From: Craspedostauros australis
Taxonomy: Eukaryota; Bacillariophyta; Bacillariophyceae; Mastogloiales; Achnanthaceae
DNA: 64,000 nt
Assembly (NCBI GenBank): GCA_026770025.1
Contig: JAMXDE010000032.1
Span: 1 to 64,000, forward strand
Reading direction: 5' to 3'
In this document: positions 3,491-23,015 of the stretch, piece by piece
How positions within the stretch are numbered: the stretch's first letter is position 1
Layout of the letters: the number at the start of each line of letters is the position of its first letter
The notes under the pieces: generated by a model
What the model was told of the DNA's origin: nothing
Databases searched by the model: none
Seen by the model: only the letters and a program-made list of their open reading frames with translations
Made by a program: the position numbers and the translations under genes

Positions 3491-3689
3491 ATATCCGTAA
3501 GGAATTTTTCGGGACTGAGGAGTCCACTTACGGCTAAGTGGATTCCTCAGTCCACTTACCATTTTTGTTGTTTCGTAAGTGGACTCCTCAGTCCAGTTAC
3601 CGTAAGTGGACTGAGGAGTCCACTTACGACCACAAAAAAAGTAGTCGAATTTCGCTCATCTGAGAAAAGACTACTTCGACCACCCCACC
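3491..3689 (+). repeat. Left inverted-repeat arm with four palindromes
   Basis: Contains four copies of a 26-bp palindrome GTAAGTGGACT-CCTC-AGTCCACTTAC or its reverse: 3512-3531 (partial), 3535-3559, 3575-3600 and 3602-3627. A larger hairpin follows, with AAGTAGTC paired to GACTACTT at about 3637-3680. Pairs with 8003-8201 in inverted orientation. Confidence 0.9.
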
Positions 3690-3959
3690 CTGTCACATTT
3701 TTTGGATTCTTCGTGTTGTTGCGTGTAAACTTGTGCACACAGCGATTTTGCATTGAGACGCACCTCCTCCGTTCTTTCCTTACACAAATACTCTCTCCAT
3801 CCCTACAATAACAGCAATCAACACTGACTCTACTCTGCATTAAATTGTCTTTCTCTACTGTTATGATACTGTTGTGCTTCTGTTATGCTACTGTTATGCT
3901 ACAGTCATCCTTGTGAGCCTCTTGTGCGTGGAATACGTTGGTGTACATTATTCGTATTG

Positions 3960-6900
3960 CATATCATCGTTTCTGCTTCTTTCCATGCAGACCGTGAGTT
4001 ATGACCTCTATATCTCTGCTCTGGATCCTGGCTTCAGCGGCTGCCTTGTGCGCAGCTTGTATTGCTGCTTCCAGATTCAGGACAGGCACCCTTGAGCTAA
4101 TTATTGTGGCCGTGTTTGTTTGATGTGCCTTGGCAGTGGTGGCTTCACCATCGGCATTGTCATTGCTTTCGTTGCTCATCTCTCTTGCTATCTCTGTTAC
4201 TGCATTTGTAGCTGTGGTAGTTGTCTCATCTGTGTTTGCGCTGATAAAGACGTTCATTGTGGTGGCTTCTCTCATTGATGCTGGGCCTTCACCTTCTCTA
4301 CCCATTCGACAGGCTCCTTGTGCACAATTCGATGACATAAGTTGTGAACAATGATTGCGTCCGCTCCTTTTGCGACGCTTCTTAATGCCATGGTTAGGGC
4401 AATGCCACATGTCATGAGCCACTCCTGTTTGTCAGCTTCGATGTATCAGCAAGCATACAAGTTGCATCCTGGACAGATCCAGTGTCTACACACTGAACAG
4501 GCAACACAGGTTCCCCTCATGTCTGGACAGTACCTTGCTGCATGCTCACCCTGCCGCAATCATTTGGTCATTTTGATCTCCTCCTTGGGATCCATCATGG
4601 ATAAGCTGGCAAGCATTCCTTTTTATTTTGATGGTCCTCGGGGCATCCCCATGGCTGCATCTCGCCATCTTCGACGGATGACCCGCCTGCTGGAATGATA
4701 TCAGTGTTGTGGGTCGCTGTCTCCGTGCCTCCCTTTTGTTTCTTGCCCTTTCTTTTGTCTGCAGCCATGACTGCAAGCAACTTGCGCAACCGAGCAATGA
4801 TTCATCCCATCAACTTGTTCAGGCTTCACTCATGATTTACTCTGCTGGGATAATGTTCGATGGTGCCAGTGTGGCCTGCTTCAATTTCACGCTCGGAGTG
4901 TGCCTCTGTTGTGTAGTGAATCAATCAATGCAGTGCCACAAACATGGTTTGTAGCTGTCAACCGACTGCTATGCAATGGATTGTTGCAATGAGTGGGGAT
5001 GCTTCGTGCTGCTGGATGAGCTTTGTTGTTATGTTAGACCCACCATTCAGGCATTTCCATACAGCACAGTTCAGGGGAGGAACGTCTTCACTGGAGGTAC
5101 TGGGAAAGCAAGAATGTTGTGGTGGGTTTGTCAAGTCTTCTTGTGATGGAATACACCATCCCCTGTGATGTTCCGCAGGTTCTTGCTTGCCCTGCAGCAC
5201 TTGTTCGTCTTTGGGTTCAGCTTGAGAAACTCTGTATGGAGCGTCTTGGATGATTGCTGATCTACCTCTGGAATTTCGGGGAAGGCAAACGCCAAGAGCA
5301 AACGGGATACATCTTCAGGAACGTTCTCAGAATGATGCAAGAGGCCAAGGGAAAACCTTGTTCCTACAATGCACAGGATGTTTCCCTTTTTGTCTCCTGT
5401 CACCCAATCGAGCGTTCATGTGAGTCAGTGGTTGTGGAAAAGGGATCCACAGTTGTGTGAGAAGACAGATGAGGTTGGTACGGAACAAGGTGAAGCCATT
5501 CGGACATGGAGAACCTGTGTTGCATTTGCCACAAGGCACACTTACCGATCACAATCAGAGCTCCTCTCACACCATAGACACATATGCATGGTGAAGCACC
5601 TGAATCATTTCTTCGTCTGCCCGGAAGAGTGAGCGATACATTACATCTTGTGCATTCAGATATAGATGGGTGCTAGTTGGGAAATTGTGCAAACGTTCCA
5701 CATTTCCGATGCGACTCCCCTTTCAGTTTTTGTGTTCTGAGTTGTTCTCGTCTTCATCTCTACAATGAATACCTCATTGTGTGCATCATTGGTTGGATCC
5801 CCCACAATGCTCAGGAAATCGATGGAGGCACGTACGTAGGTTTTGATCTGTTCCGGACAAGGCCAGCATGAAATGCGGCCTTGATGGTCGTGTTGATTCC
5901 ACCCACATGTTCGCAGTCCATGGCTGCTCTCATCAGTAGTTCCTCGTTTGCGTGTCCCAGACGTGTGTAGGCATAGGATTTACCATGCCAGGCCTTCATG
6001 AACCATGCCTGCAAAGCCGTCTTTGCAAGTCGTTGCCGCAGTTCCAGCAACTGGGGTGATGCGGTACCATCACTTCCATTGCTGAGCACATCATTTTCAT
6101 TGTGTTCTCCTTGTGTATCAGTCTGGAGACTGGAGTTACTGTTCCTTGTTGCTGCTGTGGCTTAGTCTGCATTATTGGATGGGGATGAAGGATTGCTGTG
6201 CTCTGAGCTACCTCTATTTTTGCGTGCAGCTGTGCTATCATCTGGTAGGCATGCGTCAGTGAATGCTGATGTGTCTGCAGCCTCTGCTCTACTGGAAGCA
6301 CCTGCATTCGACGCGGATGTGGCAGTAGTGGGTGGACCAGAGGCAGATGTGCTCGATGCTGCAGTGTTGGAAGCTGGCGTGCCTGATGTGCAAGGGGTTG
6401 GTGTGTTGAATGTGGACAATGTGGATTGTGAGGCAGGTGAGCCTGAAGTCTTGGGTGCAGATGCTGCAGCTGCAGCTTCTTCAGTGAGGTGTGTGTTGCA
6501 TGCCGAAGTTTGAAGATATGGAGGATTGAGCTGGAGATGAAGGGAGAGCAAAAGTGCTGACGACTGAGGTTGTAGATGTTCAAGTCTGCTGAGCAGACAA
6601 AGATTGTCCTTGATGGCAGTGGACGGACTTTGTGCGCCTTGATGCTGGTGTGAGTCGAGATGGCCTCGTCCATCTAGAAGCAGATGACCTCGTGCTGTGC
6701 GTTGTAGATGCGGATGGAGGAGGAGCTGATGTGGCAGACATCAATGCAGACGATGTGAATGAAGGGGAGGCACAACAACTGCATGTACTAGGTGCAATTG
6801 TATACCTGCCAGAGTCGCAGTTGATGCTGGCTGCAGCATCACTTGACTGCTGGGTTGCAGCAGCCTGGGCAACACTGACTCCCTTCTCACGGGCGATGCC

Positions 6901-7740
6901 GTGCGGGTCCTGCAGTTGTTTGTTGTCTGGCTAGGAGATGGGATGGAATGGTTTGGATTGGTCGAAGCAGCCATCATTGCAGTCTTGTAGAGGATGTCCA
7001 TGTCCTTTGAAAGCTGCTTCATGCACAGCCGTTGAAAACAGTTTGGCGGCATTGTGCAGTGCTTGCGATTTGCCTTCCCATGGGTGCTCAGGGTGAGGCT
7101 GAGCTTTTTTGCAACGTCTTGGCTGGACGCTTGTTTCATTGCGCGAGCGCAGACAGGTGCAGACTTTCTGCTGAGCAGTCATCCTTTGACCATTGCGCAA
7201 CAGAGGCTCGCAGGTTGGCCTCCAATTTCGATGAGTTGTCTTGTTCATTTGTGAGCCCCTTGTAGTGCACCTTTGCATCAAGCAAGGCCTTTCCCACAGC
7301 AACACAAACTCTGCTGCATTGGGATCCAGCATCTTCCATTGCAGGCCCATAGAAGCCACTCGTTCTGGTTCTGTCAGAGCTGGTTGTTCAACAGTTCCGG
7401 ATGTGCCGGTTGCAGATGTGCTGGTTGTAGTTGTGTTAGTGTGAGCATCATTGGGGATGATGATGTTGGCGGCAGCAACAATGGCAGCAATCAGCATGGC
7501 TGCTGGTGCATTGTTGGCCACATGAGCATTGCCAACAAGGTAGACTCCAGTATCAACGTTGTTGGCGTCAACATTGCTTTCGTTGTGGACACCAAGGATG
7601 TCATCATTGTTGTCACTGTCAAGATGGATTGGGGTATCAACAACCCAGTCTTCGTATGAACTGTCGGTGTCATTGTCGCTGTGGTTGGTGGCGTCTGCTA
7701 TGTGCTCGATGAGGGATGCGATGTCAGGCAAAGTACTTAC
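3960..7740 (-). pseudogene. Broken coding remnant inside the foldback-like element
   Basis: Coding-like stretches follow each other on the minus strand but change frame repeatedly. They include 6931-7731 (acidic, SSYEDWVVD), 7136-7339, 6741-7139, 5811-6089 (RQRLAKTALQAWF), 5131-5403 (ENVPEDVSRLL) and 3964-4422. Between 7340 and 6741 the apparent coding frame steps through all three frames, which fits indel decay. Some breaks could instead be introns: a CGGTAAGT occurs near 5545. I do not recognise the protein family. The region is inside matching inverted repeats, so it is most likely the decayed gene of that element. Confidence 0.35.
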
Positions 7741-8002
7741 GATGAAACAAGCTTCTTGAAGCTGGTGGGAACCTAAACAGTGTTATAGTAGAGGAACATT
7801 TGATGATGAAAGACGTTGATGGTACTGAAGGGAACGGCAATTACGATAAAAAGCTTGTGGTTGCACACAAAGTTGTTGTGTTACCGTCTACAAGTCTATT
7901 GAAGTCCAAGGATGCGGTTGACAACACGTAAATCAACGCGACAAAATACGAAGCCAGCATCACAACCAGAACGCAACCGAGAGAAACAGGGAATTTGGAG
8001 GA

Positions 8003-8201
8003 GGTGGAGTGGTCAAAGTAGTCTTTTCTCAGATGAGCGAAATTTGACTACTTTTTTTGTGGTCGTAAGTGGACTCCTCAGTCCACTTACGGTAACTGGA
8101 CTGAGGAGTCCACTTACGAAGCCCAAAAATGCAAGGGGGTCGTAAGTGGACTCACCAGTCCACTTACGAAAACGCCCACACAAAAAATTCCTTACGGATA
8201 T
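8003..8201 (-). repeat. Right inverted-repeat arm with three palindromes
   Basis: Inverted counterpart of 3491-3689. Palindromic units lie at 8065-8090, 8092-8117 and 8142-8167, and the AAGTAGTC/GACTACTT hairpin at about 8016-8052. Small differences from the left arm, including one fewer palindrome, show the arms have diverged. Confidence 0.9.
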
Positions 8202-8610
8202 CCAGTTGCACGCAAGTCCAATGCGCGTAAAGTCGTACTTGACTGCAGCATACAACAACGCACAGCGCGCAGCGAAGAAAACAACCGTGGCACCAAATGC
8301 GACCAACAACAACACCAAAATGGCATCGACATCACCATCGTCACCACCATCACCATCGCCGCCTGCAACAGCAACAACCGCAATTGTGGCGGAAGCAACA
8401 GATACGACGCAAACAGAACAGCAGCACAGGGAAGAAGAGGAAGAGATGGAAGAAGAGGAACGAGAGCACAGAATGTGGTGTGAGGCCAACACCACCAAGG
8501 CACATGCAGAGAACGAAGAGATGGTCCCAGAAGAAGTGAGGGATGCGATTCGGACGAGGATGAGAACGAGACTGTTGGCGAAAATGGAGGAAAAAAATAG
8601 GACTAATTAA
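8196..8610 (+). pseudogene. C-terminal remnant of an element-A-type protein (element B)
   Basis: From about codon 17 of this frame the product aligns with the C-terminus of the large element A protein: QLHASPMRVKSYL against QLHANPMRVKASL, then a lysine/alanine-rich stretch, a threonine-rich linker, an EEEE-rich helix, and REHRMWCEAN against ELDHQMWCDAD. The rest of the protein is missing because the foldback-like element ends at 8201. The stop codon TAA is the last three bases of the TTAA at 8607-8610, the target site of element A. The fragment is on the opposite strand to A's gene, so it belongs to a second, older copy of the family. Confidence 0.8.
8607..8610. repeat. TTAA target duplication, left
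   Basis: TTAA immediately outside the left tip of element A; it matches 22100-22103. Its last three bases are the stop codon of the element B remnant. Confidence 0.8.
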
Positions 8611-8766
8611 GAGCCCGATCAGTGAGTCGACCTGCACTTTGAAATGGACCTCCAGAAATTTTCTCTCCTACAAACTAACCAAGCACATATTCGTAATCCT
8701 TGTAGGTCTAATACAAATAATTAACCATTACATTTTTGAATCAGATCCTACTTTAAGTTTTATGGA
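8611..8766 (+). repeat. Element A left terminal inverted repeat
   Basis: Reads inward GAGCCCGATCAGTG..., and its reverse complement aligns end to end with 21944-22099. Shared internal landmarks are GGATTACGAATATGTGCTTGG and CCATAAAACTTAAA. The outer 45 bases are identical and the inner part has diverged. Confidence 0.88.
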
Positions 8767-9046
8767 CCGATGGATATGCGCAATTTTCGATCTCTTTCGT
8801 GTTTCGGCCTCTTGCTTACGACTACATCGATCCAATTTAACCCTTTGCTGTTCTTTGTTTCAGCAACTTTGTTCCGATTTTGAATTGTTTAGTCTCTTTT
8901 TCAGGTGTTCGGATGAGGCCATCCAACAGTCCATCCACGATAGCACTAGTTGTAGAATGTTGGGGGAAGCGGTTAATCCACGTTTACGTTACTTACACCA
9001 TGTGCTTGTCCAATCCGTCATCGACGTCACGAAATTGGATACTTCG

Positions 9047-9420
9047 TCATGAAGCACCAATGATATCACGATGCACAACATCATCAGGTCTGCTTCGTCG
9101 TGGCGAAGTGATTGAGTGGGGTTGGTACTCCTCGAGTGTTTTGTGTCGTGGTCTTTTTGGACAGTCGGTACAATTGGAGGTAAATATCCACATCCCCCAA
9201 CATGTGAGGCCGGTTGAGAGTGGCAAACTCGACACACCAACATGGAAGTGGAGCAACACCAAAAAAAATACCACAATGGCCATCGAACGGTATGCTTGGC
9301 GCCGCAACAACCAGCCGGCCAATTCAAGATCCAAGAACATCGCCGTCACCTCCACGCAACGTTTGGTGGGTGGACGAACGGAGGCGGGAAGAGGAGTTGA
9401 TTTGGGGCCGTCGTAGGCCC
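9047..9420 (-). pseudogene. Possible retroelement integrase-region relic
   Basis: Within the 1.8 kb between the stop of the element A gene and its left end, the minus strand encodes a short stretch resembling the zinc-binding and N-terminal integrase region of a copia-type Pol. A possible first histidine lies in LLHFHVG, followed by CTDCPKRPRHKT and then DDVVHRDIIGA, reminiscent of the family's C-x-x-C...K...R...VH-DI-G pattern. The frame then stops and similarity would continue only after shifts. It may equally be chance, since only these short motifs agree. Confidence 0.3.
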
Positions 9421-10437
9421 CAGAAATACGATCACGATTTGGCCCCAAATCGGCTCGTTGGTTTTGGCCTGTGTATGGCACACACAGGCCATATCAGCGC
9501 CTACAGATACGCAAGACGCCTCAGGAAGGCCAAGACAAAGGCACCCTCGAAGTTTGAGGCTCGCGGAGCACCGGGAAGGTGTCCGCACGGAGGAAAAGGT
9601 GGTTCTGAGGAGTTTTGGTTGAGGCTTGCGCGGCACTGGTCGCGTGGCTTTGGCTGCGAGGAGCGATGGGACGACGCCCCTCAATCTCCAAGGCCCCCAT
9701 ACAAGATGCGTGCGGCATCAATTGAAGATGCACGTCGTGAAGTATGCTCTGCTGAAGTTTTCTGAAAGAGGCTGCAGCCGACCATATCTGCAGAATGGTC
9801 ATGTTTGGTTGGAGCAAAAAATGCACCACCACATCATCATCTGGAGGTGTATCACGTCATCCATGCACTCCCAGCCCATTCTGGATGCATCCGCGTGTCG
9901 CCATGGAGTGTGGGAATGCACGAGGAGTGCTTGGAGGGGCTGAACGGATCGTATGGATGAGGTATGGATCCGTATCCATACCGCATCCGGATTGAACACG
10001 TTTTTTGGCAATTGCTCTGTTTCAGTGTGTGGCTGCATTGCTGCATGCAGAGCCAATGTCTGTGGCCAGCCTTCATGGAGTGGATAGCTGGGGGGTATGC
10101 AGAGCGAATGGTATGCACAGTTTGCTGAAATACAAGGATGATGATGATGATCATGTGTGCTCATTGGAGGGCAACATTGTGGCATCAACAATTTTTTCCG
10201 AATCCACCACACAAACACAGCAAACCAACATGATTTCCAAATATATTCTATACTCATTTAACTTTGATATTCTGATTAACAGATAGCCAGGCATCTGAGC
10301 GCAATGTTTAGATTTAATTTTAAACGATGTGTTGTTGAGATATAGCATGACAAGCAGATATTGGATGTGCTTTTTGGACGGCCTCTAGACTCGTTTTAGT
10401 AGCATGGTCTGCCACCCACAAAACTCCACAACTAGTG

Positions 10438-13400
10438 TTATCGCGGCAGTACGTGCCCATCACAATTTTCCGTCCCATCATCCAACACAGCCTCACTTTC
10501 TGTGTTGGCCTTCAGTGTGTCAGCATCACACCACATCTGATGATCCAGCTCCTCTTCTTCTCTCTGCAACTCCTCCTCTCTTCGTTCCTCCTGTGTTTCA
10601 GCTGGCGCATCGCGGGTCGCCACAATTGCAGATGCTGTTGCTGTTGCTGTTGTGTTGCCTGTTGGGTTGGTGGTGGTTTCCGTCTTGATGAGGGCAGCCT
10701 CCTTCTTTTCCTTGCGTTGTTTGGCGTTGTACGCTGCAGACAGCGACGCTTTCACGCGCATGGGATTTGCGTGCAGTTGTACGTACCAGTCAGTTTTGGT
10801 CCTGTTGTCGTCCATCAATTGCTCGTGTGCTTCGTGTTCGGACGGTCTGTTTTTCAGGTCCTTCGCGGACGCTTCACTGATGTCCTTCAATTTGTCCGCG
10901 ATGTATTCTGGTAGTTCCGCTGGTTTGCGCGTTGTTTTGCTCGCCCAGCCTGGCACTGCAAGTGGTGGATGTTCTGTTTCTGCAGTCTGGTCTTGTAGCG
11001 CTGTGGTGTGATCGGATGGTAGATGTTGTTGTCCGTCTGCGATGGCTTTGCCGAACGCCAGTGCCTTGCTCTCTGCTGCTGTGCGCCCGAGTTTTCGCGT
11101 CTTGTCCGTCTTCCTGAACGATTCGGACGTTATCGGCAGCTTGTCGGACGTGATTGTTCTGTCCTCGATGACACCCAACTCGTTGATGATCCACCCTTCC
11201 CATTCAGCGCTCTTGACCACGACGTCTTCCGTGATACCAGATGCAGCCACCAACCGCGCCTGGTCATCATCATACTTCACCTCGTGAGTTTGACGTACCT
11301 GTTGTCCAGATGCGCGGAATCGTCGTTTTGGTGCGCCAGGAAGCGTGGTGATGTTGCCTTGGAGGGACGACGCGTTGACCAGTACTGTGGTGGTACCCGC
11401 GATGCTACCAGCTTTCAGTGCTTCGTAGAGTTGGCGGGCGGTCTTGATGTCACGTCCGCTTTGCACGTATTTTCGCAGTACACGGGTGATGAACGCGAAG
11501 TGGGTGTCCAGCATGCTCTTACCGGTTTGGGCCTCCGTGTAGATCCACGCGATGATTTTGGCTGCTTTTGGTGTCGCAAGGTTCTTGTTGAGTACCGATG
11601 TGATGAGCGCGATGTGCTCGTGACTGGCAAAGCAACACGCATTATCGCTCTGTAGGATGATTTCAGTCACGGATGGGTGAATGTCTTTGACCTTTTTTTG
11701 CACAATCTCCAGCAGTCCACCAACTTGAAGTGTGTCTTGTGTTGGTCTTCCACTGACCACAATGTCGATGAACCGATAAGTAAAAATGTCATTGCGACAC
11801 GTGATGACCATCGCCCCAAGCAGTGACATTCCCTTTTTCCCCCAATATTCTTGTTGGGCTTCGCTTTGGCCTGTCGGTAGAATTTTTTGCTTATGGTCGA
11901 GTACCACATAGGCTCTTTCAGGCTTTTCGTTGAGCTGGGATTGATAAAAAGCGATTTGTCCGAATTGAACTTTGGCACGCACTTTGTGAGCCATGTAATT
12001 AATGATTTCATCAGCGAATCCCGGCGCTGCCGCAAGCATTGATTGCAATTCGTCCTTGTGTTCTGCGAGTTCGTTGTCCTTAAGCATTTCGACGAATGGG
12101 ACAAAACGATCATTCACAAATCGCATTGCTGCGCCACAACGGTTGCATACTTTACGCGGTTGTTCGTTTGTTGTGACCACAGGAATGTCATTTGTGATGA
12201 TTGGAATGTTGTTTGTGATGGTGGTGTTCTTCTTGCGCTTGTGCTTGTTGGTGCGTGGCTTGCGTTGATTGGTTGATGTGGTTGTTGCCTTCTTCTTCTC
12301 CTTTCCTGTGATGAGTGCGAACGCAGCCGAATGCATGGGGTCGTCACACTCATGCTGCATGTGTGACGCGGTGAATTCCCATTTGACGAACACAACAAGC
12401 AGTTCGAGCGCATGCGAGAGGGACTCTGCTGTGCGCACATGTGGTGAGATGACGTCATCTGGCTCATTGTTGTCATGGTGGGTCTTGTCATTGGCATCGT
12501 TTTTCTCCTCGCCCCCCACTTCATACTTAGCCTTCAGCAGGTCGACTAGGCGCGAAATTGCCTGTTTCAGTTTCTCCGTGGCCATCCAGAAATAGCTCTC
12601 AAAGGAAGAAAGCCCTGTCTTGATCTTGCTTTTGCGTGTGAGGAGGTTGGTCATTGTAGCGAACGCAGGCCTTCCTACTGGGTTGTTAGTTGTGGACGAG
12701 TACATGCCGAATAATTCTTGGATGGTCGTGCCACCTCGATCGAACACTGGGACATTTTCAAATGCAACTCCACCATACTGTACCGTGTGACTTAACCCTG
12801 CCTTGTATGTTGTTGTTGTCATGAGGAAGGACACCACGCCAGAGAGATTGCAGGCACTCACACGGTACTGAAGAACTCGTAGTGGAATGCTTTCACCGTG
12901 GCTCATCATGTCGTAGTAGCGTCGCAAGGTGTCTGTCTGACTGCGTGTGATCGTGTCGCGTTTGGGAAGCATGCGCGCCTTCTGTTCCTCCGATAGTCCA
13001 TGTGCCTGCTTGCCCAAGATAGCAGTACACAGTGTGTGGGGCGCGGACATGGCCAAGGCAGCTCTCACTGTGACAGACGACGTAGTTTCGCCGAGCAAAC
13101 CCAGGGTGTACAGATTGGGCGCCAACATGATTGGCGGAAGCTCCACATTGCCTCGTACGTATGCAACCACCTGTTCCATTTGACAAGTTGGCACCTCTTC
13201 TTCTGGAAGCAGGACAGTCCAAAGCGCGGACGATACGACATTCCACATCTGTTTCACATAGCTCCAGACGGTTCGATCATGTCTGCCTGCGAGGACGAAC
13301 CCTTTTTTCGGCATGAGCTGCAACAGTTTTGGATCTAGGTTAGATCGAAGCGCTGCCATCACACGAACGATGGCGTCGCGCCTCCAGATTCCCGCCTCTT

Positions 13401-13764
13401 CCAGATCGTACCCGAACTGGCCTCCTCTCCTGTTCCTGCTGGCGCGCGGCCCCTCCTTCTTGTAGTTGTCGTCGTACGTGCTGTCACTGTCGCCAGAGGC
13501 ATCTGCGTAGCCCCCAGCAACAACAGCATTGCAGCGACGAGGGAGCCTCGCTGGTGGGGCAGGCTCGACAGGTGGTGCAACGTCGGCCATAGCAGGCGGG
13601 GGTGGCGCGTTCACGACAACGCTCACCAAAGTCCCATCGCCGACACCTCGTCCCTCCGAACGCACCCTGACATTGGATTCGTCAAAGACGCCTCCGTTGT
13701 TGTCAAGGATGTGGACATACACATGCAGCTCGCGAGCGTGCGCATGCGTACCGTTCGGGACAAG
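10438..13764 (-). CDS. Element A large protein, main part (candidate transposase)
   Basis: Residues 77-1184 of a protein whose first 78 codons lie beyond the copia insertion at 21211-21444; the 6-base target duplication is codons 77-78 and is present on both sides. The frame is open throughout. After a proline-rich N-terminus come a long helical region, a basic linker, a CNRCG cysteine pair (near 12145), and a segment with the layout of an RNase-H-like fold. In that segment an aspartate in VVLDHKQKIL (D699) is followed by YWGKKG, D783 in LQSDNACCF, then E820 and D829 in IYTEAQTGKSMLDTHF. These four acids are candidate catalytic residues. The C-terminus is acidic and helical. I recall similar D...GKRG...SDNA...EAQ-GK proteins of unknown function in animals; a search is needed to confirm. 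Split by copia, it cannot make a full product. Confidence 0.72.
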   Translation of the reverse strand, partial: LVPNGTHAHARELHVYVHILDNNGGVFDESNVRVRSEGRGVGDGTLVSVVVNAPPPPAMADVAPPVEPAPPARLPRRCNAVVAGGYADASGDSDSTYDDNYKKEGPRASRNRRGGQFGYDLEEAGIWRRDAIVRVMAALRSNLDPKLLQLMPKKGFVLAGRHDRTVWSYVKQMWNVVSSALWTVLLPEEEVPTCQMEQVVAYVRGNVELPPIMLAPNLYTLGLLGETTSSVTVRAALAMSAPHTLCTAILGKQAHGLSEEQKARMLPKRDTITRSQTDTLRRYYDMMSHGESIPLRVLQYRVSACNLSGVVSFLMTTTTYKAGLSHTVQYGGVAFENVPVFDRGGTTIQELFGMYSSTTNNPVGRPAFATMTNLLTRKSKIKTGLSSFESYFWMATEKLKQAISRLVDLLKAKYEVGGEEKNDANDKTHHDNNEPDDVISPHVRTAESLSHALELLVVFVKWEFTASHMQHECDDPMHSAAFALITGKEKKKATTTSTNQRKPRTNKHKRKKNTTITNNIPIITNDIPVVTTNEQPRKVCNRCGAAMRFVNDRFVPFVEMLKDNELAEHKDELQSMLAAAPGFADEIINYMAHKVRAKVQFGQIAFYQSQLNEKPERAYVVLDHKQKILPTGQSEAQQEYWGKKGMSLLGAMVITCRNDIFTYRFIDIVVSGRPTQDTLQVGGLLEIVQKKVKDIHPSVTEIILQSDNACCFASHEHIALITSVLNKNLATPKAAKIIAWIYTEAQTGKSMLDTHFAFITRVLRKYVQSGRDIKTARQLYEALKAGSIAGTTTVLVNASSLQGNITTLPGAPKRRFRASGQQVRQTHEVKYDDDQARLVAASGITEDVVVKSAEWEGWIINELGVIEDRTITSDKLPITSESFRKTDKTRKLGRTAAESKALAFGKAIADGQQHLPSDHTTALQDQTAETEHPPLAVPGWASKTTRKPAELPEYIADKLKDISEASAKDLKNRPSEHEAHEQLMDDNRTKTDWYVQLHANPMRVKASLSAAYNAKQRKEKKEAALIKTETTTNPTGNTTATATASAIVATRDAPAETQEERREEELQREEEELDHQMWCDADTLKANTESEAVLDDGTENCDGHVLPR

Positions 13765-14519
13765 TGTTGGAAATCCGGGGTTAGGTAGTAGATTAATCTC
13801 TTATCAATCTGTACCAATTTAGAACTGTGAGAACAAACTCCTTGACTCTCCAATTCCAGTTCAGCAGCAAGTGTAATCTGTAGCAGTTCACCATGATCAT
13901 GCACTTGTTCATGGTTGCTTTCATCTGCTTCATCAGCTTGCTCTCATGCTCTCTTCTGCAGGTTCATCATGCATCATCGTGGTGATTTGCATCTTCTACA
14001 TTCGAGCAGCATCTCTCATAGACGCACAGGTACCTTCAGCATGGGTCTCAGTCTGATCGATCCCACTTGACCTTCGGTTCCTCAGTGTTCCACCTGCGCC
14101 ATCATCACATACTCACCGGTCATGTTCAATGCATGTCGCGTCGTCATTCGTGCTCTTGAGCGGATAGGAGCATCGCCTCCGTTTCGCTTTCTCAGAGAAG
14201 CGATCCCTTGTCCGTCGATGCGCGTCGACATGTCTGATACATATCGACAGTTTCGCCCATAGTCTTGGCTCATGTGCGATTACATCCCTAGAGGTCGATC
14301 CATAGGTTCGCCCTCATTACAGCGGTGGTACATGGATAGGCTCCATGGTGGGACATGACTGATGTTGATGTCATTCATGAACAGAGGGTTGATGGGGGAC
14401 AGGCTGCAAGGTGGTCCGAGTGTTACCAACAAAGTTGACCTCGTCGAGTTGTGAAGATATTATTGGGAGGTGCGGCAATCATGGGTATCTTGGTAAAAGT
14501 GTACCCCCGATTCCTGACA
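13765..14519 (-). repeat. Copia 3' LTR
   Basis: Read on the minus strand it starts TGTCAGGAATCGGGGG and ends in CCAACA. Differs from the 5' LTR at 13800 (C versus G) and in CACCGGTC versus CACTGGTC near 14117. Confidence 0.95.
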
Positions 14520-14531
14520 CCCTTCCATTGT
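14520..14531 (-). other. Polypurine tract of the copia element
   Basis: On the minus strand AATGGAAGGGTG directly precedes the TGTCAGG start of the 3' LTR, the expected position of the primer for plus-strand DNA synthesis. Confidence 0.65.
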
Positions 14532-14604
14532 CGCATTGACAATATATCGTTCTTGACTCTGCTCTCTCTTACCCTTCATCACCACCGTCCCACTCTCCGT
14601 TCCG

Positions 14605-17600
14605 TTAGTCCAATGCTGACCTTGGCTGGATGATATCGCCCTTGTGTCTGTCGTAGATCTCCTTCTTCGTGTTCTTGGTGAACCCGTCTGCGATGTTGTC
14701 CTCTGAACGTACGAACCGGGCTCTAGCCTCTCTGTTCGCAATCAGTTCTCGAATGAAGTGATGTCGTATGTCGATGTGTCTGGTTCGGGCGGATGTGGAT
14801 GGGTTGGAAGCGATGAAGATTGCTCCCACGTTGTCAACCATCACGTCTGCTGGTCTGTGTATCTCCAGCCCGATGTCTCTCATCAGTTGGGTGAGGAAGC
14901 GGATCTCCTTTCCGGCCTCCGATAGTGCAACGTACTCTGCTTCCGTTGAGCTCAGTGTCACGCTGCGTTGTGCCTTCGATCTCCAGATGATTGGCACTCC
15001 TTGTAGTAGCACGATGTGTCCTCCTACGCTGATGCGGTTGTCCTTGTCGCCAGCGAACTCGCTGTCGGTGTATACAACAATCTTCCATGCATCGTTCTCC
15101 AATGGATCCGGCTTCACCCTCAGTCCATATTCCCTCGTGTCCGACACGAACTTCATGACCCTTAGCATTTCCTTGTATGCTACGGCTGTCGGTCCATCCA
15201 ACACCTTGGTCAGTTCACGTACCGCGTTGGCGATGTCGGGCCGGGAGTGTTTTACCAAGTATAGCAGCATACCTACTCCACTTCGGTACCTGCTGTGCCG
15301 TTCCTTGTCCACCTTGGGCGAGTCACTGTCCCTTTGGATGCCTTGCCCTGGTGTCCCTGGTGTACCGTACCGCTGTAGCTTCATCACGTCGTCCTTGAAT
15401 GTCTCGGTGATGTTCTTGATGATGTGCGGTTGGTTCACCCAGCAGTTCGTATGATCGTGGTTGAATATGATCTTGCAACTGAGATAGTCTTCGAGATCCT
15501 CTTCCACCTTGATTCCGAACCGCTCTGCCTTGATATCCCTCACTAGCTTCTTCAGTTCCTGTTCCTCTCCGATGCACAAGCAATCGTCAACGTAGGTTCC
15601 GATCAGAAGTAGGCTCCCTTCCTGATTCCGAATCAGAAGGCATGGATCCACAGCGCTCTGTCTAAACCCCAATTTGAGTAGGATGTCGACCAGCTTCTTG
15701 TTCCATTGTCTGGCACTCTGCACGAGTCCATAAATCGTCTTCTTGAGTAGCAGGCATTCGTCGGCTTCATGCTTCATACCCTTGGGGCATCGCATGTAGA
15801 TCTCCTCCTCGAGCTCTCCATGTAAGAATGCTGTCTCAAAGTCGATAATGATGCTGTCCAAGTGTAACAACATCTTCATTGTGAGCATAACGCGGTAGGT
15901 TGCGTCGTGTATCACTGGTGCGTGGTGTGCTGAGAAGTCAACTCCTGCAATCTGCGAGTATCTGCATGCGACGAGTCTTGCACGGAACACACCGTTCCTC
16001 TTCTCCTTGAACACCCATTTGGTCTTCACGCATCGCTGATCCTTCGGCATTTGGTTCATCTTGATCTTCTCCCATACTCCTCTTCTGGTCATATCGTTGA
16101 ACTCCTTGTTGATGGCCTCCCGCCATTTCGTTCTCTTCTCAGGATCTGCATGATCCCAGCACTCCTCGAATGTGGTTGGGTCTAGCATCATTGCGACATT
16201 AGCTTGTTCGTACCCCTCTTCGAGTGGTCGTTGGTCCAATCCTTGGCTCGCTGTGATGAAGTCGTCGAGTCTCATCTTACCGTGAGTAGTGTCTATCATC
16301 ATACCTGCGACATCTCTGTTGAATGTTGACCAATTTGTGTGGAAATCCTGTCCTGATGTTGCCAATGGTGTGGTAGTCGTTGTTGGAGTAGTCTCGTTCT
16401 CTCCTTCATCTGATTCTGACTCTCCACTGGATCCTAGGTCTCGTTCCTCCATTGGAATGGGTGAATTGTTGAACCCCGCGAGAGCCTTCAGCATCCTTGG
16501 CATTCCTCTAACAGGTGTTGCGACTGGGACCTCGTCTTGATCGTGTGGTCTCTTCTCGTTGTCCCTTCCGGATTCACCGTCGTTATCATCGTACGAATCG
16601 TCATCCCCTTGGGTGGGGAGCAAGTCATCTTGCCCTTGAGCAGCGTCTTCTGTATCTACATCAATTCCGGCTCCTCTGCTCTGATCTGCGTCGTCGGTCT
16701 CCATTCCCTTGATGGTGTCCTCACGTCGCTCCCAAGTTACTCTATTGTTCGGGGAAAGTATCTCCGATGTAGAGTCGTCATCTTCCAGGTCCATTAGTAC
16801 TGACCTGTTGGCGTTCGTAATACCCTTGAACTGCCCATATGACTGGTTCATCCATGTCACGTCTCTTGTGATTAGGATTCTCGTTGTAGCTAGATTCATC
16901 ATCCGGTACACACCACTAGCATGCGATTGGCCGTATCCGACGAACATAGCCGGTTTGGATCTGCTGTCCAGCTTCGCCTTGATTGTTCGTCCTCCGATGT
17001 GGACCATACCTATTTCCCCGAATGTACGCAGTCCATCTACGTAGGTGGGGATCTGTTCGTTGAACAGGATACACGCTGGTTCTCTTGTCTTTGTTCCGAT
17101 GATGTTCTCCAATTGCGTGGCTGTGCGAGCTGCTTCTGCCCACAGCTTACTTCGAGAGCTCTTCGGTAGATGCGTCTGATTCAGCATAGCTCTCACCTTT
17201 CCGTATAGTACAGCGAATTTTCGCTCCACGCGACCATTTTGTTGGGGAGTGGCCGCGGCGGTGTACTCGAAAGTCGGTCCGAATCCAGCGTTAAGTAGTT
17301 GCTTCTCCGTGGAGTAATTTTCTCCCGCGTTGTCACATCCCACATTTTTCACGCTCACTTCCTGATTCGCCCGAAGCCACCGTAATAACCCCACCATCTT
17401 GGATCCGACGTCACTCTTTTCTTTCACAAAGAAACTCCAGCAGTAATCGCTGTAGTCATCGATAACCAGAAGCCAGTATTTGCCTTGGCCGAAACTGTAC
17501 GTCTGAACACTCGATGTGTCCATGAACAGTCGCTCTCCGACTTTCTTTGCTCTTGGCTGTAGAGTTTTCGTCAATCCTCTTTGTCGCGATTTGCCGATCG

Positions 17601-20373
17601 CGCAATCCACACAAGCGTTCAGCTTCCCTGTGACATTTCATCCGTATCGTCCCGCAGTGCGAGAGATGGTGTAAGTGTCAACATGGCCTAACATTTTATG
17701 GATTTTGTTGATGTCGATCGGTTTCTTCGTCGACACCCCGACGTTGGCTTGATCGTCGAGTGCAGGAGCGGCTATCATGTTTACGCCACTCACAAATCCG
17801 CTGTGCGTCGCCATGATGCGATCGAAGCGAATGCGTTGTCCCTTCTTCTCCAAGGACATGACCACACCTCGGTTGCTAATATCGAAACCGTTTTCGAGAG
17901 CCTTGTTGATGCTCAAGAGGTTGACCCATAACTCAGGTACGTACTTCACCGACTTGAGGAGGATGATTGCGGTATCGCCATTCTTCTGCATGACCTTCAT
18001 CCGCTTGTCCCCCACCTTGGTTGCCTTGAGGTATCGACCGCTGCCTACCTTGATGGAGTGATTCGCTGTGCGCACGTTGATCATACCCTCGTCGTTGTTC
18101 GTGAGGTGACAGGAGGCGCCGGAATCTCCCAACCAGGTGTTGGCCTCGTGGCGGTCGGGTGCGATGATCGACTTACGCGTATCGACGTCGTCCAAGTCGC
18201 CGATCACCATTGCCATTTCGTGGCCGTTGGCATCGCTGTACAGCGGTAGCTCGCAGTGAGTGCGATAATCACGGACGCCATTGATGCTCGGATGGTGCAT
18301 CCACATCAGCTGCTCCGATGCGGTGCTGCTCATCGCTCCGATCAGCGCCTGTTGAATTGGCTGAAGGCGAACGTTCTCCAGCATTCCGTTCATCCGGTAT
18401 GCATTCACGCAGATGTCGAGCGCGCCTCGCACTCCGATTTGGTGCATCAAGTAGTACAAGGAGCGTGGCTCCACCCCCGTCAGTCTGAGGGTTGCAATGT
18501 CATGTACTGCGTCGATGCAGATGAGGGAGAGTTCGGACCGGACGTCGTTTGGTGAAAGGACGTTGCTCAACGAGCATCGGGCGGTCACGAATAATAATCC
18601 GCTCGTTTCATCTAGCACCTCTCTGCGCACCATCCTTTCGCCTTCGTTTCTAGGCACGGCACCTCTTGGCTCGTTGGCGAGCTGGATGAAGAAGGGTATG
18701 TTCGGGCAGTCCACGCACCATGCGTAGAGGGGCCCGCGCTTGAGGCACAACGGACACCATCCGTTGTTCATGTCGCGACGCGATGATTGCTCGATCATGT
18801 CGTCGAGTGCGCTTGGACGGGATGGGAGACTATAGACCGGTTCGTTGATGGCGCGGTCGATGTTGTCGTTGTCGACTCCTGTCATCGCCATCTCCGTTAC
18901 GTCTGCGTCCTCTTCATCTGTCGTTCCCTCGTGGTACTCTGTGACCACTTCGTCGGGATCCTCGGCTTCTGCGTCGGATGAAAAGAGCTCGTCTTTGATC
19001 ATCTCCTCGTCGTTGATAGGGGGCCCGTAGTAACCGTACTCTCGTGGAGAGTGCTTGGCCATATCTTCGGAAGTCCATGCTCTTTCTGCGTTGGATGTTC
19101 CGCTCTCGAAGCTGGCGGTTCCGTCGACGTCGATCGTGACGAACGCCATGTCATCCATCATCACGTCGTCATCGTGTGAAAACACACGGTCCTGTGTTGT
19201 CACATTTCTGTCTTGGTTTGCGAATTTGGTGATTTTGTTGAGTTTTTCGATGATCACATTTTCTTCTTCGATCGCGTCTTCGTTGATGAACACACACATC
19301 ATATCGTCTGATGCGGTGAGTGCGACGTCGTCGACTCCATCCATTCCGTCGGTAGCGACGTTGGCGGAGTCCGCCTCCTTCATGGCGGCCCTGAGCTTGA
19401 AGCACTGCACAATCTTGTGCCCCTTCTTGCCGCAGTAGTTGCATTCCCCGTTGAATTTGGGTTTGCCTCCGCCGTTGCCTTGGCCCTTCGACTTGTTCTT
19501 GCCGTTGCCCTTCTTGGCTGCGGAGCGACAATCCGCCTTCTTGTGGCCGTAGGCGCCACAGTTGCGACAGTTGCCCTTGAAGCTCCCCATGGCTGCGAGT
19601 GCCATCTCCTCCTTACTGTTGTTGCCGCCTCGGTTGGAGTTGCCTCCCTTGATGTTGCGGCCGTCGTAGGTGGCGCTCATGGTCTCGCGGATGTCTTCGA
19701 TAGTCATGGTCTCTTCCTTTCCGAGGAATCTGAGTTCTATGATCTTCACATCCATTTCGTACTCTTTGCCAAGGGCGTTGAGCACGAGCATGTGGTACTG
19801 CTGCATATCCATGTTGATACCAGCGTTACCGAGGCGATTGCGCAGCACTTCCATTTCGGTGAGGAACGTGTCTGGATTCTCGCCCTTCTTCAATCGCATC
19901 CCGTTGAGTTGAGCTAACAACTTTGCCTTCATAGGCGCGGTTCGTTGCTCGTAGATGCGCTCAAGAGCCTTCCACGCCTTGCGCGGGTCTCCACTCTCAG
20001 TGAGACTGCCCTTAGTCCCCACCACAGCCATGAAGGCGACATCGCCTTCCGTAGTTTCGTGGTTGATAGCCACGGTCAGTTCTTCGAACGCGTACTTAGC
20101 CAGCATCTTCTTGTATTCTGCCTTTTCCGCACGGGTCAGGGAGGATACTTTCTTAGGTTCACTCGCGCCTTCCTCCGTTTTTGGAACGGGAGCCAAAGGG
20201 TCTGAGCTGAACGGTGCTGGCTTCACCACTACGTCATCGAAGTCCATGAGGTAAAAATCCTCGAGCCCCTTGCGCGTGGCGCGGGTGATGAACTTGATAC
20301 TCCAGCCTTTCCAACTGGAACGCTTGCTGTCGAAGACGACAACGCGATCAGACTTGAAGAGGTGGGAGCTCAT
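14605..20373 (-). pseudogene. Copia Gag-Pol polyprotein with one in-frame TGA
   Basis: One reading frame from ATG 20373 to the stop at 14605, interrupted only by TGA at 17638-17640 (1,921 sense codons). In order: Gag; two CCHC zinc knuckles (CRNCGAYGHKKADC and CNYCGKKGHKIVQC, about 19,390-19,580); protease with DSGAS; a gag-pre-integrase segment starting HKMLGH; DDE integrase (LVIDDYSDY, CDNAGENY, TPQQNGRVERK); reverse transcriptase with YVDD; RNase H with TDSEFAGD and STEAEY; and the closing HIDIRHHF and NIADGFTK motifs. The TGA falls inside the gag-pre-integrase domain, between GRYG and NVTGKLNAC, rather than at a domain boundary. A CGA to TGA change is the simplest explanation, so full Pol would need readthrough. 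Confidence 0.95.
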
Positions 20374-20431
20374 GGTCGAAGTAGTGGTGGTGATGTTCGT
20401 TGCTGTGTTGGTGGGTGATGGAAACGTTGGA

Positions 20432-20455
20432 TTTCAATCGTAACGTTTCGAAACG
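20432..20455 (-). other. Primer-binding-site region of the copia element, tRNA not identified
   Basis: The bases following the 5' LTR on the minus strand read CGTTTCGAAACGTTACG. They lack the TGG start expected for priming from a tRNA 3' end, so the primer may be an internal tRNA piece or the site may be altered. Confidence 0.3.
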
Positions 20456-21210
20456 TGTTGGAAATCCGGGGTTAGGTAGTAGATTAATCTGTTATCAATC
20501 TGTACCAATTTAGAACTGTGAGAACAAACTCCTTGACTCTCCAATTCCAGTTCAGCAGCAAGTGTAATCTGTAGCAGTTCACCATGATCATGCACTTGTT
20601 CATGGTTGCTTTCATCTGCTTCATCAGCTTGCTCTCATGCTCTCTTCTGCAGGTTCATCATGCATCATCGTGGTGATTTGCATCTTCTACATTCGAGCAG
20701 CATCTCTCATAGACGCACAGGTACCTTCAGCATGGGTCTCAGTCTGATCGATCCCACTTGACCTTCGGTTCCTCAGTGTTCCACCTGCGCCATCATCACA
20801 TACTCACTGGTCATGTTCAATGCATGTCGCGTCGTCATTCGTGCTCTTGAGCGGATAGGAGCATCGCCTCCGTTTCGCTTTCTCAGAGAAGCGATCCCTT
20901 GTCCGTCGATGCGCGTCGACATGTCTGATACATATCGACAGTTTCGCCCATAGTCTTGGCTCATGTGCGATTACATCCCTAGAGGTCGATCCATAGGTTC
21001 GCCCTCATTACAGCGGTGGTACATGGATAGGCTCCATGGTGGGACATGACTGATGTTGATGTCATTCATGAACAGAGGGTTGATGGGGGACAGGCTGCAA
21101 GGTGGTCCGAGTGTTACCAACAAAGTTGACCTCGTCGAGTTGTGAAGATATTATTGGGAGGTGCGGCAATCATGGGTATCTTGGTAAAAGTGTACCCCCG
21201 ATTCCTGACA
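20456..21210 (-). repeat. Copia 5' LTR
   Basis: 755 bp, the same length as 13765-14519 and differing at two positions. Followed on the + strand by GACAAG, the second copy of the target duplication. Confidence 0.95.
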
Positions 21211-21444
21211 GACAAGGTTGCCATCCGCTGCAAGTATTGGCTTCACATCGATCACTTGCGTGATGGTGCTCGGCTTCCCCAATGCAGCGGATGGCTTGTC
21301 AGGCAACAGTTGCTCGACAGTAGGCAGCAAGTCCCCCTTCGAATCGAAAGGAGGAGCAGATGCAAGGCGAGCAGAACGGGGTTTCTTACTGGGGGAGGGG
21401 TTAGCATCCTTGGAGAGGGCCTTGGTGGTGGTGGAGAGAGGCAT
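21211..21444 (-). CDS. Element A large protein, N-terminal 78 codons
   Basis: Begins at an ATG (21444) in a favourable CACCATGC context and runs in frame to the copia target duplication, whose six bases CTTGTC encode L77-V78. The same six bases precede the continuation on the other side of the copia element at 13764, and the frame resumes without shift. The segment has a serine/proline/lysine-rich beginning followed by KGDLLPTVEQLLPDK. The frame is open upstream of this ATG too, but that stretch is a low-complexity valine run and an unlikely N-terminus. Confidence 0.7.
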
Positions 21445-21943
21445 GGTGGAGTTGTTGGTGGAGAGTAGTGCTGTTTGCTCGTTGGATGTGATGAACTGCA
21501 GAGGTTGAGACGAAGTGAGGAAGGAGAGCATACGATGAAAGGCCAACCACCTGGTGACAACAACAACAACAACAACAGCAACCACTACTACTACTACTAC
21601 TAGTGTGACAAGAACGGGCATGGAGCGAAAGGGCGAGTGTGCAGGGCATTGGCGAGGAAAGTTGTGAATGGAGCCAAAGTGTGGCGCGATTTTGCGAAAT
21701 GATGGAGATGATGTGTTTTGTGTGATGTGTTTTGTGTCATGTGTTTTGTGCCGAGCAGAATGTGGAATCAGGTGCCACATGCTAACGTGTAATTAACGCG
21801 TACCAAACGACTGACACCTTCGGAAGCAAGTCCGTGACTGATCACCTCACGATAAATACATGAGAACAGCATAGAACCTTCTGCCAACAACAACGGGTTT
21901 TGTGCTGTTGGACCCACGTGACTGCTATGCACACATAGATCAC
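21445..21943 (-). other. Element A upstream region
   Basis: About 500 bp between the element A gene start and its right terminal repeat, the likely promoter and 5' leader. It holds adjoining (ACA)n and (CTA)n short repeats at about 21,563-21,602 and a GTGTTTTGTGT-rich patch near 21,713-21,752. No gene is seen on either strand. Confidence 0.45.
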
Positions 21944-22099
21944 TCCATAAAACTTAAAATAAAGATCTAACAAAAAATGTAACGGTTAATTATGTATAAT
22001 GAGATTATAAGGATTACGAATATGTGCTTGGTTTGGATATCGCAGATGAAAAGTTAGAATGTCCATTTCAAAGTGCAGGTCGACTCACTGATCGGGCTC
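21944..22099 (-). repeat. Element A right terminal inverted repeat
   Basis: Ends ...GTCGACTCACTGATCGGGCTC, then TTAA at 22100-22103. Inverse of 8611-8766 and of the same length. Confidence 0.88.
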
Positions 22100-22103
22100 T
22101 TAA

Positions 22104-22663
22104 TTCAAAATGTGAACAAAGTTGCCAAAACCGAGAACACGAACACGTTATTTTGGATCGAGTTTGTCGGATGTCTATCGTTGAAGCTTAGAAGTGGTCC
22201 AAAAATGGGCACATTGACAGGTCCATAAAACTTAAACTGTGGACTTTAAGATTCTGGGTAATTTTCCTGTTGCTATGGAGACTATAAAGAGTAGGTTGGT
22301 ATGCTTAGTTCTGTTGTAATCGAAGAAAAAGTGCCACTCTACTTTACCAACGGTAGGTCCACTCGCTCACCTGGGTCATATTAACCTAACGGCAGTAAAA
22401 GACATATGAATGCAGTAGCATGGTTGGAAAGAAGAGCTCGAGAGGATTCAGAATATGTAAAGAAAAGAGGTTCCCACTCGTAGGCGTTGGGGTCGAAAGT
22501 TGGAATAACTGAGTATGAAATTGTTATTGCCCAATTATTGGGCGTTGGGTCGTGAAGGGATAAGGAGAGTTAGAAGATTACGAATATGCGTTTGGTTGGG
22601 ATATTCAAGATACAATGTGTAGAGTCCAATAACGGAGTGCAGGTCGACTCACTGATCGGGCTC
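22104..22663 (+). mobile_element. Terminal remnant of older element B
   Basis: The last 100 bases (from about 22564, ending GATCGGGCTC at 22663 and followed by TTAT) resemble the outer end of element A, including AGATTACGAATATGCG and the identical GTGCAGGTCGACTCACTG. A CCATAAAACTTAAA landmark of the A terminal repeat recurs at about 22225. The orientation is that expected for the 3' end of an element whose gene reads on +, as the remnant at 8196-8610 does. Joining across element A gives one broken copy, B. Confidence 0.7.
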
Positions 22664-23015
22664 TTATGTTCTGCACCAATAGCACGTACGTATGGCGAGA
22701 TTCTGTTGGATGTTTTGTAGAATAGCAATCGTCATACTATTCTTGAAGTCTACGAGTACTATTTGTCTCTAGATTCGCAAATGCGCGCTAAAAAGCAAAG
22801 TCTCGGACAGACGATCAGACGAGATCGTACGAAAATGATGACATCAGCATGTGGATTTGATGGCAAAGAACACGTTGGGAGGAGAAAGATCTTGTCTGCG
22901 TTGACGAGACGGACACGCACTCACAGGAACACGAGTAGTCGTACGAGGACGATCTGCTCGGCAAGGGAAGAACGACCTGCATCGGCCCTTGAGCTCATAC
23001 ATATTAGTGCATACT

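Follow-up and report, generated by a model that had tools for sequence, protein, structure and literature searches.

Two exact copies of TTAA flank an element with terminal inverted repeats (TIRs) and one large gene in the diatom Craspedostauros australis, within the window analysed here (the 64,000-nucleotide stretch at positions 1 to 64,000 of contig JAMXDE010000032.1), raising the question of whether the element belongs to a TTAA-targeting group and, if not, which of the known superfamilies it resembles. A previous sequence-only reading had proposed a TTAA-targeting DNA transposon, possibly of a separate family. The present results very probably describe an autonomous DNA transposon that targets NTAN, encodes one RNase-H-type transposase and most resembles Sola elements, and that is likely to move by cut and paste.

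Structure of the window copy

The whole transposon copy occupies positions 8611-22099 on the minus strand, as defined by its TIRs and flanks, and its 13,489 bp include a later insertion of 7,446 bp by a Copia-type LTR retrotransposon, on both sides of which the copy aligns with an intact genome copy (L019). The tips are GAGCCCGATC, starting at 8611, and GATCGGGCTC, ending at 22099, and the exact TTAA reported on both flanks was read directly at 8607-8610 (left) and 22100-22103 (right). The TIRs, originally given as 156 bp, are also present: the left repeat (8611-8782, plus strand) and the right repeat (21928-22099, minus strand), both of approximately 172 bp, align at 81% over 172 bp.

The description of a single large minus-strand gene was borne out, with the qualification that the figure of 1,184 residues adds together two pieces parted by the Copia element. 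The main coding piece, which includes the stop codon, lies at 10438-13764 (minus strand; ORF, translation and alignment). It is contained in a frame of 1120 aa at 10438-13800 (protein P0001), which opens at 13800 within the Copia LTR and derives its first 12 residues from it. The N-terminal coding piece, at 21211-21444 on the minus strand within an ORF at 21151-21792, extends to the Copia insertion point from a likely start methionine (MPLSTTTK...), which was placed there from a homologous methionine in other copies and tblastn matches. The longest frames start in a low-complexity repeat, and the shared downstream methionine gives a protein of approximately 1,170 residues.

The Copia element (13765-21210, minus strand), identified from its LTRs, flanking repeat and Pfam matches, is young. 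Its LTRs, at 13765-14519 and 20456-21210, are 755 bp each with two mismatches between them, it is flanked by GACAAG at 13759-13764 and 21211-21216, and its proteins match the Pfam models RVT_2, SH3_retrovirus, Retrotran_gag_2 and Pol_BBD. The two long frames at 17638-20433 and 14605-17637 share one reading frame and are parted by one stop codon.

The transposon itself is inserted into an older relative, a member of a subfamily termed subfamily X, the C-terminal coding end of which is at 8200-8610 (plus strand; 85% amino acid and 93% nucleotide identity to L096) and the 3' tail and terminal repeat of which are at 22104-22663 (plus strand), followed by TTAT at 22664-22667. L096, a subfamily X copy on another contig, is uninterrupted and has a single TTAA at this site, and 337 of 357 positions are identical between it and the joined flanks of the window copy. 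This empty site directly demonstrates a 4-bp duplication for the window insertion, in which the element met TTAA by chance inside the 3' end of the older copy. The nesting also gives the order of events: subfamily X first, then the present element and finally Copia.

Insertions of one family member into the terminal region of another were also seen, from flanks judged by eye, at L082-L085 (G000:C9:1593309-1605479) and at L070/L071, and self-nesting may be frequent in this family.

To the left of the transposon, positions 3563-8173 hold a repeat structure with 127-bp inverted arms at 3563-3689 and 8003-8129 (94%). Each arm is made up of palindromic units around GTAAGTGGACTC...GAGTCCACTTAC; another such unit lies at 8138-8173, and the right side of the structure adjoins the truncated older relative near 8200. 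A 12-bp tandem repeat array at 7-492 is exact in the middle and diverges toward its ends.

A recently mobile family in the host genome

The genome to which the window belongs (74.8 Mb in 90 contigs) contains 286 matches to the tip pattern (144 + 142), against none for the reversed control. The protein search, in which 44 of 561 candidates were scored, yielded at least 44 matches with identities of 83-100%, the window among them, and 36 of these have no internal stop. A 140-residue C-terminal query from the subfamily X relative yielded at least 151 matches (150 of 305 candidates scored). The 100 tips listed include 37 inward neighbouring pairs, of which 32 span 5,989-6,110 bp and the other five 8.9-14.9 kb; short inward pairs are absent among these 100 tips. 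Seventeen loci with both tips measure 6,009-6,145 bp, with repeats ending at 152-173 bp.

L025 matches L028 along all 6,053 bp (100.0% identity), and the two have different target-site duplications (TSDs; ATAG and GTAT); five of the 17 intact copies (L027, L029, L030, L032 and L033) are mutually 98.8-99.8% identical. This is a real multi-copy family, copies of which have moved recently. Judged from the coding sequences, the transposase has been under purifying selection, with dN/dS of 0.20-0.23 over the whole protein in all seven pairs compared and of 0.05-0.18 for residues 566-860. The element is well defined: it is multi-copy and recently mobile, its ends are exact, its target follows a clear rule, and an empty site has been observed.

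Tip bases 7-10 differ among copies (GATC, CTCG, CCCG, GGAT) and mostly agree between the ends of one copy, an exception being L056/L057 (CCTT vs CCAT). These bases may mark subfamilies.

A 5.8S gene and an interrupted 18S gene show the host genome to be eukaryotic. The latter (L098, G000:C62 near 24276) is broken by intron-like stretches outside the Rfam model, the matches to which cover model positions 1226-1659 spread over 1,051 bp and, after a gap, 1667-1823.

The putative transposase

The motifs of the RNase-H-like arrangement first described (YWGKKG and SDNACCF) are indeed present, as are its acidic residues D699, D783, E820 and D829, which correspond to D635, D719, E756 and D765 of P0001. 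In a comparison of nine sequences, two of them from the 59%-identical subfamily X, four candidate catalytic acids are invariant (9/9), all encoded on the minus strand: D635, the putative first acid (11896-11898); D719 in SDNACCF, the putative second (11644-11646); D765 in GKSMLDTHF, the preferred putative third (11506-11508); and E756, the alternative third (11533-11535). The preference for D765 over E756 is tentative and arises only because Sola transposases are described as DDD. Equally invariant (9/9) are C485/H490 and C552/C555 (12136-12348, minus strand), which lie around a basic low-complexity linker and could possibly form a split zinc site.

The region containing the putative triad, residues 566-860, is the most conserved of three segments between the window copy and subfamily X (72%, vs 59% overall). 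Close copies do not always follow this order: between those in the window and L017 it is 95.6% identical and the N-terminal segment 96.9%. A single-sequence AlphaFold model of residues 549-877 (329 residues) had a mean pLDDT of 39.5, too poor for use. Its low-confidence order of elements, namely a strand that ends immediately ahead of D635, a short helix, two strands, a helix, a short strand before D719 and then helices, would agree with an RNase-H fold and is no proof of one. The model places both E756 and D765 in low-confidence predicted helices, giving no choice between them.

Searches of Pfam, NCBIfam, PHROGs and the PDB linked the protein to no known transposase, whether by sequence or by fold. 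In Pfam, no transposase model was matched by five proteins, P0001 among them, with E values allowed up to 1, or by ten putative catalytic segments with E values allowed up to 10; the best unrelated hit was Glyco_tran_WecG (E 0.065), a family that four of the ten segments matched. The best E values (Pfam 0.021, PHROGs 0.089, PDB 0.16) included no transposase, and P0001, the only NCBIfam query, had no match there. The convergence criterion of Repbase is an E value below 0.005 (PMC4455052). A retroviral-type integrase core, as in Ginger, gave no Pfam match, nor did the Copia pol of the window at E 0.001, and hhalign of a very shallow alignment (A2) against 149 residues of that pol, a comparison of little power, returned a probability of 0.2 percent. 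Relatives were also absent from viral contigs and prokaryote genomes, within the limited reach of protein scans by short peptide patterns, and from phages and plasmids by tblastn. One viral contig (L101) matched the tip pattern by chance, the match lying inside a long phage-like gene that bears no resemblance to the element. The sequence-only reading is supported in so far as the element is a genuine DNA transposon, the single large gene of which goes unrecognised by the libraries searched.

This lack of significant matches, for P0001 and the putative catalytic segment in Pfam, PHROGs and the PDB and for P0001 in NCBIfam, is one argument that the element lies outside Sola and represents a DDE/D superfamily not described before, which would have a 4-bp, TA-centred target rule of its own. 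The silence of the libraries weighs little, however, as they may lack Sola models and as the Copia element in the window was only a partial positive control for the Pfam search, which recognised its reverse transcriptase and gag and missed its integrase core at E 0.001.

Target site selection

Target specificity was assessed from a census of 30 further end pairs, 20 loci distinct from these pairs, and the window copy. Perfect 4-bp TSDs were found in 27 of the 30 pairs, 17 of the 20 loci and the window, and all 45 are NTAN, with TA at the centre: TTAT (7), ATAG (7), ATAT (6), TTAA (4), ATAA (4), ATAC (3), CTAG (3), GTAT (3), CTAT (3), GTAA (2), CTAC (1), TTAG (1) and GTAG (1). The remaining three pairs have unequal flanks (GTAT/CTAG, ATAG/ATAT and CTAT/ATAT), every one of them TA-centred, and the remaining three loci (L016, L031 and L035) have no recognisable tip. 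The census revealed no strong base preference outside the four target bases. A literature search judged by titles, which is a weak test of novelty, gave no title concerning an element with an NTAN TSD.

Two adjacent copies at L060-L063 (G000:C6:1182200-1196504), the flanks of which are unequal (ATAG/ATAT in one, CTAT/ATAT in the other), look as though they had undergone rearrangement or recombination.

With TTAA in only four of 45 perfect TSDs, TTAA specificity is ruled out, and with it falls the earlier argument that an element with this target and neither a piggyBac nor a Kolobok transposase should form a separate family. A single flanking TTAA can mislead, and target specificity needs many insertions to be established. 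That the element is nevertheless a TTAA-specific transposon, whether of piggyBac, of Kolobok or of some new group with this target, is therefore extremely improbable, although TTAA does lie on both sides of the window copy and the tips are of the Kolobok form.

Pfam holds a piggyBac model, and no match to it was found here, in a search for which the Copia control was only partial. What is shared with piggyBac is the 4-bp TSD and the TA at the centre of TTAA. The piggyBac elements are described as TTAA-specific (PMC7351741), which sets them apart from the present family. Classical Kolobok elements are likewise described as TTAA-specific, with tips of the form 5'-RR...YY-3' and, in the stretch that leads from the second acid to the last, a C/DxxH motif (PMC9587614). 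The tips of the present element (GA...TC) fit this form and its TSD is also 4 bp, but the census excludes membership of classical Kolobok, as of piggyBac, by way of TTAA, and in the translation no C/DxxH occurs between D719 and D765, if the triad is as assumed. KolobokP elements are described as having long terminal direct repeats, and their TSDs of 3-5 bp as showing no strong preference (PMC9587614); the strict NTAN rule and the missing C/DxxH speak against a lineage of this kind.

Proposed mechanism of transposition

On the strength of its ends, its duplications and the selection test, the element is best explained as an autonomous DNA transposon of approximately 6.0-6.1 kb that would most likely move by cut and paste. 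Its single protein of approximately 1,170 residues would bind the inverted repeats, presumably through its N-terminal part, and use an acidic triad of the RNase-H type, consisting of D635, D719 and probably D765, to cut at the GAGCCC tips. The ends would then be joined to the two strands of an NTAN target at positions four bases apart, and gap repair would produce the 4-bp duplication. The window copy would represent one such event, a chance landing on TTAA in an older relative, later broken by Copia.

The same ends and target could also be used in copy-out paste-in transposition through a circular form, and the high copy number and near-identical copies fit either mode. Eukaryotic DDE/D elements with long TIRs mostly cut and paste, and a copy-out mode appears improbable for the present element.

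Comparison with known superfamilies

The TSDs of Kyakuja-Dileera-Zisupton (KDZ) elements are 8 bp long, as opposed to 4 bp here. The likeness to this group is the large transposase, as KDZ proteins can exceed 1,300 residues (PMC12477816).

The 4-bp TSD makes Sola, a superfamily unnamed in the earlier reading, the natural comparison. One of its groups, Sola3, targets TTAA. Sola elements are described as having a DDD transposase, a 4-bp TSD, a length of mostly 2-9 kb and TIRs of 11-1124 bp (PMC10741241), and in a comparison made by description only, the present element lies within these ranges with its 4-bp TSD, length of 6.0-6.1 kb and TIRs of approximately 152-173 bp. D635, D719 and D765 are compatible with the DDD pattern, but E756 is equally invariant. 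The brown alga Ectocarpus is listed as carrying Sola-1 and Sola-2 (PMC12477816).

The target rule differs from that given for Sola2, the TSDs of which are described as AWWT, or as ATAT, AAAT or ATTT (PMC3627910). This difference, the strict NTAN rule and the size of the protein, approximately 1,170 residues, all favour the separate superfamily considered above, while the size of the element, its TIR length and its TSD length, all within the described range of Sola (PMC10741241), count against it, and a separate superfamily is on balance unlikely. Equally unlikely is the more specific proposal of an undescribed DDE/D superfamily, still or very recently active, with one large transposase and a strict TA core in a 4-bp target, which would form a bridge from Tc1/mariner, with its TA, to piggyBac and Kolobok, with their TTAA. 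Should the protein prove not to be Sola, the family would constitute both a new superfamily and a new case of a transposase reading a TA core. The preferred reading remains that the element likely works like a Sola-type element, and its overall anatomy makes it somewhat probable that it is a divergent member of the Sola superfamily.
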